From NCBI RefSeq assembly GCF_022834715.1, contig NZ_BQKC01000001.1, positions 1,462,501-1,526,500 on the forward strand: 64,000 nucleotides of DNA, read 5' to 3'. The notes beneath the pieces are model-generated. The model was not told the DNA's origin. It saw only the letters and a program-made list of their open reading frames with translations, and made no database searches. Position 1 is the stretch's first letter. The number at the start of each line of letters is the position of its first letter. This DNA comes from Granulimonas faecalis. Its GTDB lineage: Bacteria; Actinomycetota; Coriobacteriia; Coriobacteriales; Atopobiaceae. Of this stretch, positions 24,237 through 49,645 are shown one piece after another. Both the position numbers and the translations under genes were made by a program.

Positions 24237-27200
24237 TCAACTATCGCACAGAACCCCGAAGGTGGGGGCGATGGGGCGATCGATGTGCTCGGCCAGGGCC
24301 TCGGCCGGGGCGTGCAGGACCCACTCGGAGAACGTGCGGAACCCCTCCCGGCTCCGCTGACCCTCGCGGTAGCGCACCGACGAGGTGAGCTCCATGTGGC
24401 CCGGGTTCTGGGCCATGGAGAGGCGCCGGCCGTCCCCGAAGCCCTCCTGGGAGCAGAAGCCGAGCTCGCTGAAGACGCCGATGCCCGAGGAGACCGCGGC
24501 CTCGGTGAGCCCGCCGCCGCCGGGGAGCGTGCGGGCGAGGTCGAGCACCTGGCCGTCGGACTCGGCCACGGTGCCGCCGCTCGGGGCGCCCAGGGTGCGC
24601 AGGGCCCGGTAGAGGGCCACCAGGGCCTCGCGGGCCGGCGCGGCCGAGGAGAGCACGGCGTCGTTGGTGGGGGCGTCCGCGGGGCCGAAGAGCGCGTGGA
24701 CCCAGGCCGGGCGCCCGTCTCGGCCGGCACGGCCGCTCATCTGGTTGAACTGCACGGTGTCGAAGGGCAGCGACCAGAGCACGACATGGCGGACGTCGGG
24801 GAGGTCGACCCCCTCGCCGAAGGCGGAGGTGGCCACCACGCAGCTCACCCGGCCGGACCGGAAGGCCCGCTCCACGGCCACGCGGCGGCCGCGGTCCAGG
24901 CCGCCGTGGTAGAAGGCCACGCGGTGGGCGAGGTCGGGCAGCCGGTGCCGCAGCTCGCGGGCGACGGCGCAGGCGGCGTCGCGGGTGTTGACGTAGACGA
25001 TGCACCGCTCCCCCGACGACGCCACGGAGGCGGCGTAGGCGCCCCGGTCGCGGAGGCCGCGGTGGTCCGCCACGGAGAGGTTGGACCGCACGGTACGGTC
25101 CACGACCACACGGTCCACGGAGAGCAGCCGGCAGACCTCCTGGGCCACGGAGTCCGACGCCGTGGCGGTGGCGGCGAGCACCTGGGGCGACTCCAGGAGG
25201 GACAGGACCTCGGGCATGTCCTGGTAGGCGGCGCGGTCGCCGCCGTGGCCCATGGCGGCGTGGTGGGCCTCGTCAACCACGACGAGGCCCACGCGGCCCG
25301 AGGCGGCGAAGCGTCTCCGGTGGATGGAGAGGAACTCGGGCGTGGTGAGCACCACGTCCACCGAGCCGTCGGCGAGGCCGGCGAAGGCGGCGTCGCGCTC
25401 GTGGGCGGGGGTCTCGCCCGTGAGGACGCGCACCCCGATGCCGAGCCCCGCGAACGCACGCTCGAGGTGGAAGGCCTGGTCGTTGACCAGGGCACGGAGC
25501 GGGAAGACGAGCACGGAGGCCCGCCCGCCGGCCACGGCCAGGCGCGCCGCGTGGAGGTGGAAGACGAGGGACTTGCCGCGGCCGGTGGCCATGACCTCGA
25601 GGACCGACTGGCCCTCGGCCAGCATGCCCAGGGCAGTGGCCTGGGCGGGCAGCAGGTCGCGGTCGCCGATGAGGGAGCGGCGCAGGGCGTCGGTGAGCCC
25701 GGGGGCGTCGAGGGCCGCCAGGCGGGCGCGCTCGGACGCGGGGTCGGGGCCGTCAGCGACGGCGTCGTCGCCGTCCGCGGCCGCACCGGGAACCGGCGCG
25801 TCGTCGGGGCACGCGGGGCCCTCGCCCCCGTCCCCGCCGTCGCCGGAGGCGCCGTCGCGGTAGAGGATGTCGCGCACCATGAGCTTGACCTTGGAGCGGC
25901 CCTGCCAGGTCTCCACCACGGCCTCGAACACGAGGTCCACGGCGCCCTCCCAGGAGAGCGCCCGCTCCACGTCCGGGGCGCGGAACATGATGGCCGCCAC
26001 GGAGTTGGCGCCGTCGCTGACGAAGAAGCGCACGTGCTCCCCCGTGGCGCCCACGGCCGCGGCGGAGCGCATGGTGACGCCCCGCACGGCGAGGAGCGGC
26101 TTCTTGTTGCCCTGGCCGAAGGGGCGCAGGAGGTCGAGGCCCTGGACCACGGGCATCGTGAGCTCGTCGAGGGTGACGACGCAGGCCACCTCCCCCACCG
26201 AGGCGAACTGCTCCGGGGGCAGGGCGGAGAGCTCCCCCGAGAGGCGGTCGCGGAACTCCGGCAGGCGGTCGGCCGGCAGGGTGACGCCCACGGCGCCCGC
26301 ATGGCCGCCGAACCGCGTGAGGAGGTCCGAGCAGCCCTCCACGGCGTGGAAGAGGTCCACGGACCCCACGGACCTGCCCGACCCGCGCGCCTCGCCGTCG
26401 GCCACCGAGAACAGCAGGCAGGGCACGTGGTAGCGGTTGACCATGCGGCTGGCCACGATGCCCTTGACGCCCTCGTGCCACCCCTCGCCGCCCAACACGA
26501 GGCAGGGCCCGCCGTCGTACTCCTCGGCCGCCCGGGCCGTCACCGAGGCCGCCATGGACGCCTCCGTGGCCCGGCGCTCGTCGTTGATGGCCTCCAGGCG
26601 GCCCGCCAGCGTGGCGGCCTCCACGGGGTCCTGGGAGACGAGCAGGTCGAACGCCACGTCGACGTCGCCCATGCGCCCGGCGGCGTTGAGGCGCGGCACG
26701 AGCGAGAACGGCAGGTCGTCGGCCTCGATGGAGGAGAGGTCGGCGCGGCTGGAGGCGGCGAGCGCCACGAGACCCGGCCGGGAGGTGCGCCGCATGGACG
26801 CGACGCCGTCGGCCACGAGGGCGCGGTTCTCGCCCACGAGCTCCATCATGTCGCTCACGGTGCCCAGGCTGGCGAGGTCGGTGTAACCGCGCCAGAGGTC
26901 GGGCCGGCCCAGGCGGCGGCCCAGCTCGCAGACGAGCTTGAGCGCCACGCCGGCGCCGGCGAGGTCGCGCGACGGGCTCTCGGGGTCGAGCTTGGGGTCG
27001 GTGACCGGCACGCCCCGGGGCACGGAGGAGCCGGGCTCATGGTGGTCGGTCACCACGACGTCGATGCCGCGGGCGACGGCGGCCGCCACCTCGTCGGCGC
27101 TCGCGATGCCGTTGTCCACGGTGACGATGAGGTCGGGCGAGCAGGCGGCCGCCACGCGCTCGAGGGCGGCGGCGGAGAGGCCGTATCCCTCCCCGAAGCG

Positions 27201-30372: not shown

Positions 30373-30500
30373 GCCTCCCCCGGCGGCGCCCCGTCCCGGC
30401 TCCCGTCCCAACACCCGGACACTTTTGTCCCATTGGTCGGGCTCTCCAGTTGTCACCCTGGTCGGGCACCCGAGGTGTCGCGCGACCAGCGGGTGCCGGA

Positions 30501-30629
30501 CCATGCCGAAGGCCCCTGCGGCATGGGTTTTTCGGCTGAGGGGTGCTCGAACCCATGCCACAGGCCCCTGCGGCATGGGTCACTCAGCGTCGGCCGCCTG
30601 AAAACCATGCCGCAACCCGCTCCGGCATG
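30501..30629. repeat. Three palindromic 25-27-bp repeats with an exact 52-bp period
   Basis: Copies start at 30501, 30553 and 30605. Consensus CCATGCC-(G/A)-(A/C)-(A/C)GGCCCCTGC-GGCATGG is itself a hairpin (CCATGCC/GGCATGG); the third copy is degenerate in the loop. The first is followed by TTTTT. Spacers between copies are unrelated to each other. Confidence 0.7.
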
Positions 30630-30665
30630 TCCGGAACCCATAAGGTGGGAAACAGGCGACGTGAC

Positions 30666-30786
30666 GGACTGGCCAGGCAGCGCCGCCACAACGGATTGGC
30701 CAGGCAGCGCTGCCATGCCATATGTTCGGTGGTTTTCTCTGCGCGAGGGACCCAGAACCACCGAACATCACGATGTTCGGTGGTTT
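30666..30786. repeat. Further short repeats in the same gap
   Basis: A 22-nt unit (GACTGGCCAGGCAGCGCCGC and its relative at 30694) recurs with a 27-nt period. Next, ATGTTCGGTGGTT (30722), its reverse complement AACCACCGAACAT (30756) and another direct copy (30773) form a hairpin plus a repeat with a 51-nt period. Confidence 0.65.
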
Positions 30787-31098
30787 AGACAAGGTTTCTT
30801 ACCGAAAAGCACCGAGCATCAGGAGGTGCTCCTGAAGAGGGAGGGAGGCCGCAGAGGCGCAGGGCGGCAGGTGCGCGACCGGGCGTGACGGTTAAAGTGC
30901 CCGACCAAGGTGACGGCGAAAGTGTCCGGGTGCTGGGACAAGAAGTGGGACAAAAGTGTCCGGGTGTTGGGACAAAGACGAGCAGTAATCGCTGAGCCCC
31001 AACCCCCGACGAGCGCACCTAAGCCATCCCAGCTGTCGGGGTCACAGGCCGGTCCGACGATGCAAAACGCCGGACCCATGGGCCGAAGGCCCCGCAGC

Positions 31099-33510: not shown

Positions 33511-33576
33511 GGCACCTCCCGATGGGCCATAATGGATGGGTTGACCACACGATACGCGACCACCGCGAGGTATGCC

Positions 33577-35631
33577 ATGCCCACTGCCAACCGCCCCTCA
33601 TTCCCTGCCCGCGCCGTGGTGACGGCCGGCATGCCCTACGGCAACAAGGGCCTGCACTTTGGCCACATCGGGGGCGTCTTCGTCCCCGCGGACTTCTTCG
33701 CCCGCTTCCTGCGCGACCGCATCGGCGCCGAGAACGTGCTGTTCGTCTCGGGCACCGACTGCTACGGCTCCCCCATCATGGAGGGCTTCCGCAAGAAGGC
33801 GGAGGACGGCTACGAGGGGACCATCACCGACTACGTCGCCGCCAACCACGAGGCCCAGAAGGCCGCGCTCGCCAGCTACGAGGTGGCCCTCGACTTCTAC
33901 GGCGGGTCGGGCCTGGCCCCGGCCAGAGACGTCCACGCCGCCATGAGCGACGCCGTCATCCGCCGCCTCCACGAGGCCGGCACCCTCAAGCTCCGCGAGA
34001 CGCTGCAGTTCTACGACGTCGAGGCCGGGCAGTTCCTCAACGGCCGTCAGGTGCAGGGCTTCTGCCCCGTGCCGGGCTGCAAGTCCGAGAAGGCCTACGC
34101 CGACGAGTGCGACCTCGGCCACCAGTTCGAGCCGGCCGACCTCGTGCGCCCCGTGAGCCAGGTCACCGGCACCGTGCCCGAGCTGCGGCCCGTGGCCAAC
34201 TGGTACTTCGACCTGCCGGGGTTCCAGGACTACCTGGAGGGCCTCGACGACGACTGGGAGACCGACGACCAGGTGCGCGACGTCGTGGTCAAGACCGTGC
34301 GCGAGTCGCTCGTGCCGCCGGCGATCTACCTCAAGTGCGACCTGCGCGGGGAGTTCGACGCCGTGGCCACGGAGCTCCCGCCCCACACGGTGCACGAGCC
34401 CCAGGGCAGGCAGCAGTCCTTCTCGGTGGAGTTCGCCGACTGGGAGGCCCGTGACCGGGCCCGTGAGGTGCTCGACGGCGCCGGCCTGCGCTTCCGCACC
34501 GGCAAGTGCCTGCTGCCGTTCCGCATTACCGGCAACATCGACTGGGGTGTGCCGGCGCCGGCCATGGACGGCGTGGACGGCCTCACGGTGTGGTGCTGGC
34601 CCGAGTCGCTCTGGGCGCCCATCTCGTTCACCGAGACCGTGCTCGGCGAGACGCCCGAGGAGCACGCCGCCAACGCCACGCTGCCCGGGGCCGTGCCCGA
34701 CACCCACGCCGGGGCCGACTGGCGCGACTGGTGGTGCGCCGACGACGCCCAGGTCTTCCAGTTCATCGGCCAGGACAACATCTACTTCTACTGTGTGGCC
34801 CAGCCGGCCATCTGGAAGGCGCTCGGGTGGGGCCTGTTCCAGGACACCCCGGTGGCCAACTACCACATCCTGTTCATGAACAAGAAGGCCTCCAGCTCCG
34901 GTGCCGTCAAGCCGCCCATGGCCGCCGAGCTGCTCGACTTCTACACGCCCGAGCAGCTGCGCTGCCACTGGCTGTCGCTGGGCCTGGGCGCCAAGGCCGT
35001 GTCGTTCGCCCCCAAGCCGTTCGACACGAGCGTCTCCCACAGGGACAAGAAGAGCGGCGAGGAGGTCCTGGTCAAGGACGACCCCCGCGTGGTGGACCCG
35101 GCCCTTAAGGAGAGCGCGTTCCTCACCAACATCTTCAACCGCCTGGCGCGCTCCTGCTTCTACGGCGCCCAGCGGCACCTGGACGGTCACCTGCCCGAGG
35201 TGGCGCCCGCCGAGGAGTGCGTGGCCGCCTGCGACGAGGCCACGCTGGCGTTCGAGGAGGCCATGCACGGGCTCGACTTCACCCGCGCCCTCTCCGTGGC
35301 CGACGCCTTCGGCCGCGAGGCCAACCGCCGCTGGGATGCCGCGTCCAAGGCGGCCAAGGACGACGAGGACGCCTATGCGGCCGCCCTCGCCGACGCCTTC
35401 CGGAGCCTGCGCACCCTGACGCTGCTCATGCACCCCGCAGCCCCCACCGGCTGCGAGAAGGTCCGCGAGCACCTGGCCATACCCGCCGACCTGCTGTTCT
35501 CCTGGGACCACGCCTTCGAGGGAGTCACGGAACTCGTGGGGGCCATGGGAGAGGCCGTGGCCGACCACAGGCTCGTGGAGCTCCCGCCGAGGACCGACTT
35601 CTTCGAGAAGCACCCGAGCCAGTACCGCTGA
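33577..35631 (+). CDS. metG: Divergent methionyl-tRNA synthetase-like protein
   Basis: Class I synthetase (684 aa). The longer frame upstream is an antisense shadow; ATG at 33577 starts the homologous sequence. HIGH-type signature is LHFGHIGG (27-34), with GTDCYGSP following at the usual place. A zinc-type knuckle FCPVPGC...ECDLGHQF lies near 162-180, and GNIDWGVPAP and FIGQDNIYF are MetRS-like. The KMSKS loop reads MNKKASSSGAV, a clear departure. The C-terminal helical region (~530 onward) fits the anticodon-binding domain. It may be the only MetRS, or a second, antibiotic-tolerant or specialised copy. A CATAAT box lies at 33529, but I cannot assign a firm -35. Confidence 0.8.
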   Translation: MPTANRPSFPARAVVTAGMPYGNKGLHFGHIGGVFVPADFFARFLRDRIGAENVLFVSGTDCYGSPIMEGFRKKAEDGYEGTITDYVAANHEAQKAALASYEVALDFYGGSGLAPARDVHAAMSDAVIRRLHEAGTLKLRETLQFYDVEAGQFLNGRQVQGFCPVPGCKSEKAYADECDLGHQFEPADLVRPVSQVTGTVPELRPVANWYFDLPGFQDYLEGLDDDWETDDQVRDVVVKTVRESLVPPAIYLKCDLRGEFDAVATELPPHTVHEPQGRQQSFSVEFADWEARDRAREVLDGAGLRFRTGKCLLPFRITGNIDWGVPAPAMDGVDGLTVWCWPESLWAPISFTETVLGETPEEHAANATLPGAVPDTHAGADWRDWWCADDAQVFQFIGQDNIYFYCVAQPAIWKALGWGLFQDTPVANYHILFMNKKASSSGAVKPPMAAELLDFYTPEQLRCHWLSLGLGAKAVSFAPKPFDTSVSHRDKKSGEEVLVKDDPRVVDPALKESAFLTNIFNRLARSCFYGAQRHLDGHLPEVAPAEECVAACDEATLAFEEAMHGLDFTRALSVADAFGREANRRWDAASKAAKDDEDAYAAALADAFRSLRTLTLLMHPAAPTGCEKVREHLAIPADLLFSWDHAFEGVTELVGAMGEAVADHRLVELPPRTDFFEKHPSQYR

Positions 35632-35693
35632 GCCGGTACCGCCCGCCCGTGCCCTACGGCGAGAGGACCCGGGCGGGCATCATCGGGTCAATC

Positions 35694-35733
35694 AAGGGCG
35701 GCCCCCGCACCTCGAGATGCGGGGGCCGCCCTT
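35694..35733. terminator. Terminator after metG
   Basis: AAGGGCGGCCCCCGCA and TGCGGGGGCCGCCCTT form a 16-bp perfect stem around CCTCGAGA. A second GC hairpin (GCCCGCCC...GGGCGGGC, 35641-35678) precedes it. Confidence 0.8.
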
Positions 35734-35772
35734 CCGTTGCCGCCCTTGCGATGCATGAGGAGGGTCTCCCCT

Positions 35773-35972
35773 TTCCCAGAAGTCGTCCCGGGAAGGGGAT
35801 CTGCCCCGTTGCCGCACCGCGTCTTCCCAGAATCCAAATCGGGAAGGCCCTTTTCCCCAGAGAGGTTCCCAAAATCCCTTTTGGGAAGGAAAAACGCCCC
35901 AGAAGGGGTTTTGGGAAGGACGACCCGATGCCACGCGGCCTTCCCGGCTTCCCAAAAGCGTTATCGGGAAGC
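35773..35972. repeat. Array of five 24-nt palindromic repeats
   Basis: Units at 35773-35796, 35824-35847, 35866-35889, 35896-35919 and 35949-35972 share TTCCCA(G/A)AA, eight variable bases, then GGGAAGG. Each unit is an imperfect hairpin (TTCCC/GGGAA). The fourth has GC for the first TT. The variable centre differs in every unit. They fill the gap (371 bp) between metG and the XRE regulator; no coding sequence is credible here. Confidence 0.75.
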
Positions 35973-36002
35973 CGCCGAGCGCGAGCGACCGCAGCGGCCG
36001 CG

Positions 36003-36470
36003 CTACCCCTGCGCCGCCTCGCCGCGCCAGCGGTCCAGGTGCGGCAGCAACGTGCCCATGAGGGAGACGGCCTCCTCCCGGGAGATACCCATGGCGTCGG
36101 CCTCGAGCTGGGCCGTGGCCTCGATGAAGTCGTCCATGGACACGTCCTTGGCCGTGAAGTCGCCGCCGTCGTAGCAGTACTTGCAGTAGTGGTCGCTCGG
36201 GCTGCCGTCGGCCTCGGTGCCGTGGAGGGACGGGTCGGGGATGGGCATGGAGCAGCACTGGCAGTAGTACTCCATGGGCATCTCGAAGAAGCGCTCCAGC
36301 GGCACGGAGAACACCGTGCAGATGAGCTTGATCATGTCGATGCCCGGGGCCGTCTCCCCGGTCTCCCAGCGAGAGACGGCCTGACGGGTCACGTAGAGCC
36401 TGCGGGCCATCTCCTCCTGGGTGAGGCCGGACTCCTTGCGGATGGTGGCGACGATGTCTTTCATGGCCAT
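36003..36470 (-). CDS. XRE-family transcriptional regulator with zinc-ribbon domain
   Basis: 155 aa. ATG at 36470, preceded by GGAGGAACCT, is preferred over an upstream start in the same frame. Residues ~1-60 are a helix-turn-helix (TQEEMARRLYVTRQAVSRWE), and residues ~80-110 carry CQCCSMPI and YCKYC, a zinc-ribbon type found in Zn_ribbon_2-like regulators. The C-terminus is helical. Ligand or target is unknown. It is convergent to metG and lies beside the palindromic array. Confidence 0.82.
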   Translation of the reverse strand: MAMKDIVATIRKESGLTQEEMARRLYVTRQAVSRWETGETAPGIDMIKLICTVFSVPLERFFEMPMEYYCQCCSMPIPDPSLHGTEADGSPSDHYCKYCYDGGDFTAKDVSMDDFIEATAQLEADAMGISREEAVSLMGTLLPHLDRWRGEAAQG

Positions 36471-36636
36471 AGGTTCCTCCCGAGGTCGTTGGTGGGTGGC
36501 CCCATGATGGGGGTGCGGAGGGGTGCCCGACAAGAAACGGGTTGTTGCGGAGGGGCCCGGTGTCCCATGGGCCGGCCTCGTTGGGCGTCACCGACGCACG
36601 AGCGCCGCCAAGACGACCCGGCACCTCGCCACAGGG

Positions 36637-49329: not shown

Positions 49330-49645
49330 GCCGTCCGGAACCGGCTGCAGGCCGCGACGGCCGCCTTGTTGAAGGGGCCGCCCGTCCGAAAGCCATGCCA
49401 GATGGAGCGGTCGCCACGTTGAAGCGACTGACCGTCCGGATGCGGTCGCGGGCCGGGGTGGCTACCGTGCTGGAGAGACGGAGCGCCCGGGAGCGGTTCC
49501 GGGCGGGGGCGGTTTCTCGGCTGAGGCCGCAACGCCGTCCTGGAGGGGCCGCAGGCGGCGTTTTCCCGCCCGGGAGCGGTTGCGGGCGAAGGTGGTTTCC
49601 CGCTTGATTGAAGTGCCCCGCCCGGAACCGGTTGCGGGCGGATGG
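49330..49645. repeat. Degenerate ~50-bp tandem repeat region
   Basis: About seven related units start at 49330, 49380, 49430, ~49482, ~49533, 49568 and 49620. Shared core: G(C/A)CCG(T/G)CCGGAANCGGTTGC followed by a GGGC block and a GTTGAAG-like end. Several contain the palindrome CCCGGAACCGGTTGCGGG or a variant. The remaining gap (49219-49743) shows no gene. Confidence 0.6.

Follow-up and report, generated by a model that had tools for sequence, protein, structure and literature searches.

Helically spaced palindrome arrays at gene 3′ ends of Granulimonas faecalis as putative protein-binding sites

REP-like repeats are usually taken as mobile DNA or RNA hairpins, BIMEs are bound by gyrase, IHF or DNA polymerase I, and the DnaA boxes of oriC are helically phased protein sites on one DNA face. 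According to a survey of REPs (PMC3733652), most of them carry a GTAG or CGTC tag; they are found mainly near the 3′ ends of genes, where the neighbouring genes are unidirectional or convergent, and dimers are frequent, with spacers of 20-100 bp that in some cases agree in length while their sequences differ. The arrays analyzed here have in common with REP/BIME elements, as described there, palindromes of 20-40 bp, clustering, dimers whose spacers are similarly long but unlike in sequence, and the position at 3′ ends. They also recall REPINs, because palindromes are paired at a set distance and two RAYT-type genes with their own repeats are present in the same genome. Unlike DnaA boxes, they are found at the gene ends of many loci and not at the origin or at promoters. 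Among the matches listed in the literature on palindromic or inverted repeats or REP elements in Coriobacteri-, Olsenella and Atopobiaceae no such arrays were found, and helically phased palindromes in intergenic DNA returned one oriC review. The arrays thus resemble known gene-end repeats but do not fit the described families. A first, sequence-only reading of this DNA had stated that the array matched no known type, which was right in that the marks of the described REP families are missing, and went too far given the likeness to REP/BIME elements at gene ends.

The window, i.e., the whole stretch of 64,000 nucleotides that was analyzed, corresponds to C1:1462501-1526500 of a genome of 2.23 Mb. 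Five palindromic units at 35771-35972 of the window, between the 3′ ends of two genes, make up array 1. The features of this region are as follows.

33523-35631, plus strand: methionyl-tRNA synthetase gene (PF09334), its start at 33523 being an outer bound; its 3′ end lies 140 bp before array 1
35694-35733, no strand: strong hairpin with two 20-nt arms and one mismatch, between the synthetase gene and array 1
35771-35796, no strand: array 1 unit 1, CTTTCCC-AGAAGTCGTCCC-GGGAAGG
35822-35847, no strand: array 1 unit 2, TCTTCCC-AGAATCCAAATC-GGGAAGG
35864-35889, no strand: array 1 unit 3, GGTTCCC-AAAATCCCTTTT-GGGAAGG
35894-35919, no strand: array 1 unit 4, left arm degenerate, ACGCCCC-AGAAGGGGTTTT-GGGAAGG
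35947-35972, no strand: array 1 unit 5, GCTTCCC-AAAAGCGTTATC-GGGAAGC
36003-36470, minus strand: gene of an XRE regulator (HTH_3 and Zn_ribbon_2); its 3′ end lies about 31 bp after array 1

The hairpin, which the terminator scan left unscored, is perhaps the terminator of the synthetase gene. Array 1 itself is real and clearly non-random, and this genome has a larger class of such elements to which it belongs. TTCCCARAA-N8-GGGAAGG, searched with up to three mismatches, matched the window 10 times against 0.5 expected (maximum of 100 shuffles, 4); nine of these matches were the five palindromes on one or both strands and one, at 24430, was unrelated, so that the array of five palindromes described by the sequence-only reading is confirmed. 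The pattern was said to be conserved in all five units; it is exact in three of them (35773, 35824 and 35866), with one mismatch at 35949 and two at 35896. Nor is 24 nt the best unit, since a frame of 26 bp with 7-bp arms around 12 bp (CCTTCCC-RRAA-N4-...-GGGAAGG) fits better, and the eight inner bases, which had been described as different, do vary between units but are constrained, so that each half-site mostly reads R-R-A-A after the arm. The objection that the motif might be frequent by chance in the genome fails, because at up to two mismatches 10 forward and 7 reverse matches were found against 1 and 1 for the reversed control. The start-to-start spacings within array 1 are 51, 42, 30 and 53.

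Across the genome the exact pattern gave seven rows, all within array 1 and a second array; a third one is degenerate.

C1:1624556-1624717, no strand: array 2, four TTCCC units with spacings of 53, 30 and 53, with the gene of an HtrA-like protease on one side and that of a heavy-metal P-type ATPase on the other
C1:759210-759351, no strand: array 3, degenerate TTCCC-type array of four palindromes with spacings of 48, 30 and 42, enclosed by a 281-bp element (L117:4151-4431; C1:759150-759430) with inverted ends of about 25 bp (GACAAGRTACCAGGTTGTTTTGTCA)

A further unit at C1:2029562, read by eye, has a 13-bp centre. The 76 stretches obtained with CTTCCCARAA-N5-YYY-GGGAAG in the genome_contigs collection were attributed to chance, as they fell into scattered groups and none had two separate sites.

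As to what these arrays might be, the sequence-only reading had offered a repeat-based system or a protein-binding array. A CRISPR-like array would account for repeats with fixed ends and for the spacers of 25-27 bp seen in 4 of the 7 TTCCC cases. However, the centres of the repeats differ within one array, the units of array 1 are 65-78% identical to the reference unit rather than near-identical, and some spacers are just 4 or 16 bp long. Furthermore, blastn of 35640-36000 against plasmids and phages gave no match at E 1e-5, a cutoff at which very short matches escape, and no cas gene directly adjoins array 1 or array 2. The CRISPR-like half of the earlier proposal therefore found no support, and we regard it as having practically no chance of being correct; the binding-array half is favoured by near-invariant arms, independently varying half-sites and whole-turn spacings. 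A test of XRE binding had also been suggested, and array 1 could in principle be the operator array of the neighbouring XRE regulator, whose gene ends 31 bp away. Array 1 is nevertheless located beyond the 3′ end of this gene, which has no unit upstream of it, and array 2, between the HtrA-like and heavy-metal ATPase genes, is without an XRE gene as immediate neighbour, which makes an XRE operator very improbable.

Two further arm families have the same 7+12+7 plan, namely CCATGCC (28 units with at most one mismatch) and CCCGCCC (5 units), and each has an array in the window.

30501-30630, no strand: CCATGCC array, units at 30501, 30553 and 30605 (spacings 52 and 52), with convergent genes on either side
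49482-49642, no strand: CCCGCCC array, units at 49482 (degenerate), 49565 and 49617 (spacings 83 and 52)

CCATGCC-N12-GGCATGG occurs in the genome at 21 places without mismatch and at 7 with one; at up to two mismatches each strand has 75 matches, compared with 8 for the reversed control. Among the matches listed, most fit CCATGCC-RNAG-N4-CTNY-GGCATGG, and most units stand in arrays of two to four with a spacing of 52-53, sometimes 42 or 62. The families also meet at one locus, where CCCGCCC units at C1:172485 and 172537 follow a TTCCC-type unit at 172423 with spacings of 62 and 52. The form common to all of them, CC-NNN-CC-RNAR-N4-YTNY-GG-NNN-GG, was found at 17 places in the genome and at none for the reversed control. 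When neighbouring repeated palindromes were collected whose 7-bp arms match exactly and whose centres measure 0-39 bp, there were 9 pairs with a 12-bp centre, 4 with 10 bp and 1-3 each with 13, 14, 15, 26 and 28 bp, an excess at 12 bp that is partly due to selection, since the 548 kb scanned included ten loci chosen for holding units; the evenly placed 400 kb alone gave one pair with a 12-bp centre (L114) and one pair of a RAYT-linked repeat.

The comparison between units showed which parts are kept. For the CCATGCC family (23 units in arrays) the identity was 0.96 in the arms, 0.53 in the 12-bp centre and 0.34 in the spacer middle, and for the TTCCC family (n=9) 0.86, 0.54 and 0.26, respectively, the spacer-middle values referring to spacers of 26-27 bp. 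Next to the arm both sides follow the same half-site rule, with R at position 1, T rare at position 2, mostly A at position 3 and G or A at position 4. Mirrored inner bases were complementary in 78 of 168 cells against 86.7 after shuffling (28 units, p 0.97), and in a second set in 33 of 66 cells against 33.3 (11 units, p 0.58). The two inner sides thus vary independently, which is how the half-sites of a protein dimer behave; because the arms are nearly invariant, this covariation test is still compatible with a hairpin whose stem is the arms alone.

Spacer length is conserved and spacer sequence drifts. The spacings are mostly 52-53 bp and otherwise mostly 30, 42, 51, 62 or 75, i.e., near whole helical turns, and arrays 1 and 2 have the steps 30 and 53 in common though their spacer middles are only 0.26 identical. 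With 10.5 bp per turn, the 30 curated spacings gave a mean cosine of 0.84, and the 11 spacings other than 52-53.5 still gave 0.64 (p 0.0006 against random spacings of 27-80). The first phasing test had n=27, to which the three spacings of the degenerate array were then added; one of these, 48, is the off-phase exception among the curated spacings. Owing to the steps common to arrays 1 and 2 not all spacings are independent, and with the shared step dropped and the degenerate array left out the phasing p was 0.0017. These counts exclude the spacing of 83 between 49482 and 49565 (7.9 turns), where a unit is possibly missing, and one of 52 that separates the degenerate 25-nt unit at L121:1983 from the unit that follows. 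Spacings near 53 and 30 are also those of res-sites; a reading as resolvase sites was considered and is unlikely for 18 loci.

Using gene calls from a simple codon-usage method, the 18 loci (14 multi-unit, 4 single) comprise 6 convergent, 12 tandem and no divergent gaps, and all of them touch a gene 3′ end; one CCATGCC locus with one mismatch, C1:1936039, entered no context count. In the tandem loci the array is nearer to the 3′ end of the upstream gene in 11 of 12 cases, the exception being the array at 49482 of the window. In 21 stretches, 24% of the intergenic DNA between 150 and 1500 bp long lies in divergent gaps, which gives P ~0.006 for 0 of 18. This placement, downstream of genes and seldom divergent, is that of REPs, and it makes promoter operators unlikely. 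As a location control, six RAYT-linked repeats from the evenly placed stretches and the window were five tandem and one divergent, too few for a comparison. The loci seemed to cluster near the replication origin (dnaA at C1:635), but the RAYT-linked repeat also thins out at 0.83-1.30 Mb, so that this bias is not peculiar to the arrays and was dropped.

Taken with the arms, the half-sites and the spacing, this leads us to propose, with a probability of about 0.4, that the arrays are putative binding sites of a dimeric, sequence-specific protein that recognizes double-stranded DNA and works like REP/BIME elements. Each 26-bp palindrome would hold two half-sites (the arm CCTTCCC and then R-R-A-A), one for each side of a dimer, and sites about 3, 4, 5 or 6 helical turns apart would place the bound dimers on the same face of the DNA, where they could touch one another and may bind cooperatively. 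The resulting complex at gene 3′ ends or between convergent genes would probably block or insulate transcription or supercoils, as REP/BIME elements are thought to do. If arms and helical spacing are kept while the rest drifts, this would suggest selection for a protein complex at gene ends, and finding a candidate protein would directly test whether bacteria insulate neighbouring genes by phased complexes.

Two findings run counter to a protein and point instead to RNA, in which case the units would be transcribed 3′ hairpins acting as terminators or 3′-end stabilisers. When five arrays were folded as RNA, both strands were more stable than shuffles (z -3.4 to -7.6), an excess that arises because palindromes fold in this way by construction. 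Moreover, most CCATGCC sides that face a spacer have GTTTT or a similar T-rich stretch after the arm, as a terminator would explain, while most outer sides are without it. The location at gene 3′ ends, a unit at L114:13393 that looks like an ordinary terminator and stands in register with its array, and the paired arms of a related genus (g23), which are kept symmetric, are also in favour of RNA. However, an intrinsic terminator has a GC stem followed by a T run, and no T run follows the TTCCC units; the T-rich internal CCATGCC sides are found in tandem and convergent loci alike. The terminator scan returned two overlapping weak sites (0.6 expected), in both of which the spacer, and not the other half of the unit, pairs with the right arm of unit 2. 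The first inner pair on the transcribed strand of the tandem arrays (19 units) was Watson-Crick in 8 cases, G-U in 4 and A-C in 7, i.e., with no preference for G-U over A-C, and a terminator would work without helical spacing and without arms that are identical at a dozen loci. At a permissive threshold, Rfam gave 21 weak matches in 35600-36600, none of which reached the gathering score. An RNA-level function is considered unlikely, if well short of negligible.

The other explanation that has to be weighed is that the palindromes are REP-mosaic or mobile-element remnants, spread by a RAYT-type transposase or by small inverted-repeat elements and partly decayed, so that their distances would come from descent. 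The genome has three Y1 transposase genes (Pfam: Y1_Tnp), of which two were called RAYT-type from their flanks and length.

L009:5111-6103: RAYT-type Y1 transposase gene, own repeat families on both sides
L095:1468-2214: RAYT-type Y1 transposase gene, own repeat families on both sides

These genes are flanked by repeats of the GTGACAGATGGGCCAGGCACC-N-CTGTCAC type (the GTGACAG family) and of the GTGTCCGGGTG type. In 5 of the 12 CCATGCC loci examined the nearest unit stands exactly 31 bp from a GTGACAG repeat, one copy of which is degenerate, and the intervening bases are partly alike.

L120:2811-2894: CCATGCC and GTGACAG composite
L122:2071-2154: CCATGCC and GTGACAG composite
L123:2489-2572: CCATGCC and GTGACAG composite
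L126:2267-2350: CCATGCC and GTGACAG composite
30605-30688 of the window: CCATGCC and GTGACAG composite, with a degenerate GTGACAG repeat from 30662 onward, 31 bp beyond the final CCATGCC unit

This 31-bp pairing suggests a fixed composite of the kind found in BIME mosaics and, for the CCATGCC family, is the strongest evidence against an origin as protein sites alone; the link to a RAYT-associated repeat weakens the protein reading and strengthens the mobile one, which is a serious rival for that family. The enclosure of the degenerate TTCCC array within the 281-bp element with inverted ends points the same way. On the other hand, neither RAYT-type gene is flanked by TTCCC or CCATGCC units, and no RAYT-linked repeat was seen alongside arrays 1 and 2. 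Plain decay would erode arms and centres alike, whereas here the arms are 86-96% identical, the centres about 53% and the spacer middles near background. The GTAG tag was present on 0 of 80 unit sides, and CGTC on 3 of 18 TTCCC sides and on 0 of the 62 others (52 CCATGCC and 10 CCCGCCC sides). Whole units are conserved, centre included, in the 44 GTGACAG copies found at up to one mismatch, as in REPINs, while TTCCC and CCATGCC units keep the arms and the half-site rule only. By these tests the TTCCC family is outside the tagged REP and REPIN families, and it differs from REP/BIME elements in having no RAYT link, fixed arms with drifting centre and spacer, near-whole-turn spacing and few copies. 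For the arrays as a whole, a mobile or mosaic origin is a possible but somewhat doubtful explanation. Palindromic repeat families stand side by side at 30405-31000 of the window (GTGTCCGGGTG, CCATGCC, degenerate GTGACAG at 30662 and 30689, and ATGTTCGGTGGTT), and an ATGCGCGATTTCGG/CGCGCATCGG repeat forms two arrays about 3 kb apart that look alike by eye (L107:5290-5500 and L107:8200-8500).

Other genomes were then compared. None of 59 other relatives had the exact TTCCC pattern, and when up to one mismatch was allowed it was likewise absent from all 139 other genomes searched in the family, a set that contained no second genome of the same genus; the CCATGCC form was found in 0 of 99 relatives, and the shared form in 18 of 99, at one or two places each, which is the level of their reversed controls. 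The arrays are therefore restricted to one genome among those searched. In viral contigs there was no stretch with the CCATGCC form and there were two single perfect palindromes of the TTCCC form, with no second unit within roughly 350 bases around each. In genus g23 an unrelated palindrome, CTACGTGAATTCACGTAG, forms pairs with a distance of 53 or 54 bp in all loci of genomes G069 (5 of 5) and G022 (4 of 4), and none in G016, and these pairs (L179-L187) lie at orthologous places of the two species in four loci. Their outer arms change symmetrically and the copies align over about 80-118 bp at 78-87%, so that they look like one dispersed element with its pairing kept. The pitch is similar, yet the pattern favours pairing, and it would count against protein sites in our arrays if both were of the same kind.

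Returning to the phased protein-binding array as the preferred reading, a wider version would be that the lineage has a class of chromosomal nucleoprotein arrays in which a single plan (7+12+7, an arm with an R-N-A-R half-site, whole-turn spacing and gene 3′ ends) serves repeatedly with interchangeable arm cores, TTC, ATG and CGC, for each of which there may be a separate paralogous protein. The 53-bp ruler may then be older than the sequence, a related genus having the same pitch with unrelated palindromes. We consider this extension decidedly improbable as it stands.

Regular spacing, which lends weight to the protein-array reading, was also seen in this genome with a repeat not related to these units, C(A/G)CCTGAAC, for which all seven spacings (31, 32, 63 and 94) are within half a base of multiples of 31.5, i.e., three turns. 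This motif, followed by RCG and a GAGGG-like end, occurs on either strand in intergenic DNA at L098:12792-12926, L115:5361-5495 and L115:10304-10438. In addition, genome G016 carries CTCACACGAAGGYCACTTCTGCRC-like repeats at L145:4405, L147:2110 and L148:6851, which form mirrored pairs around an A+T-richer stretch of about 100-150 bp.
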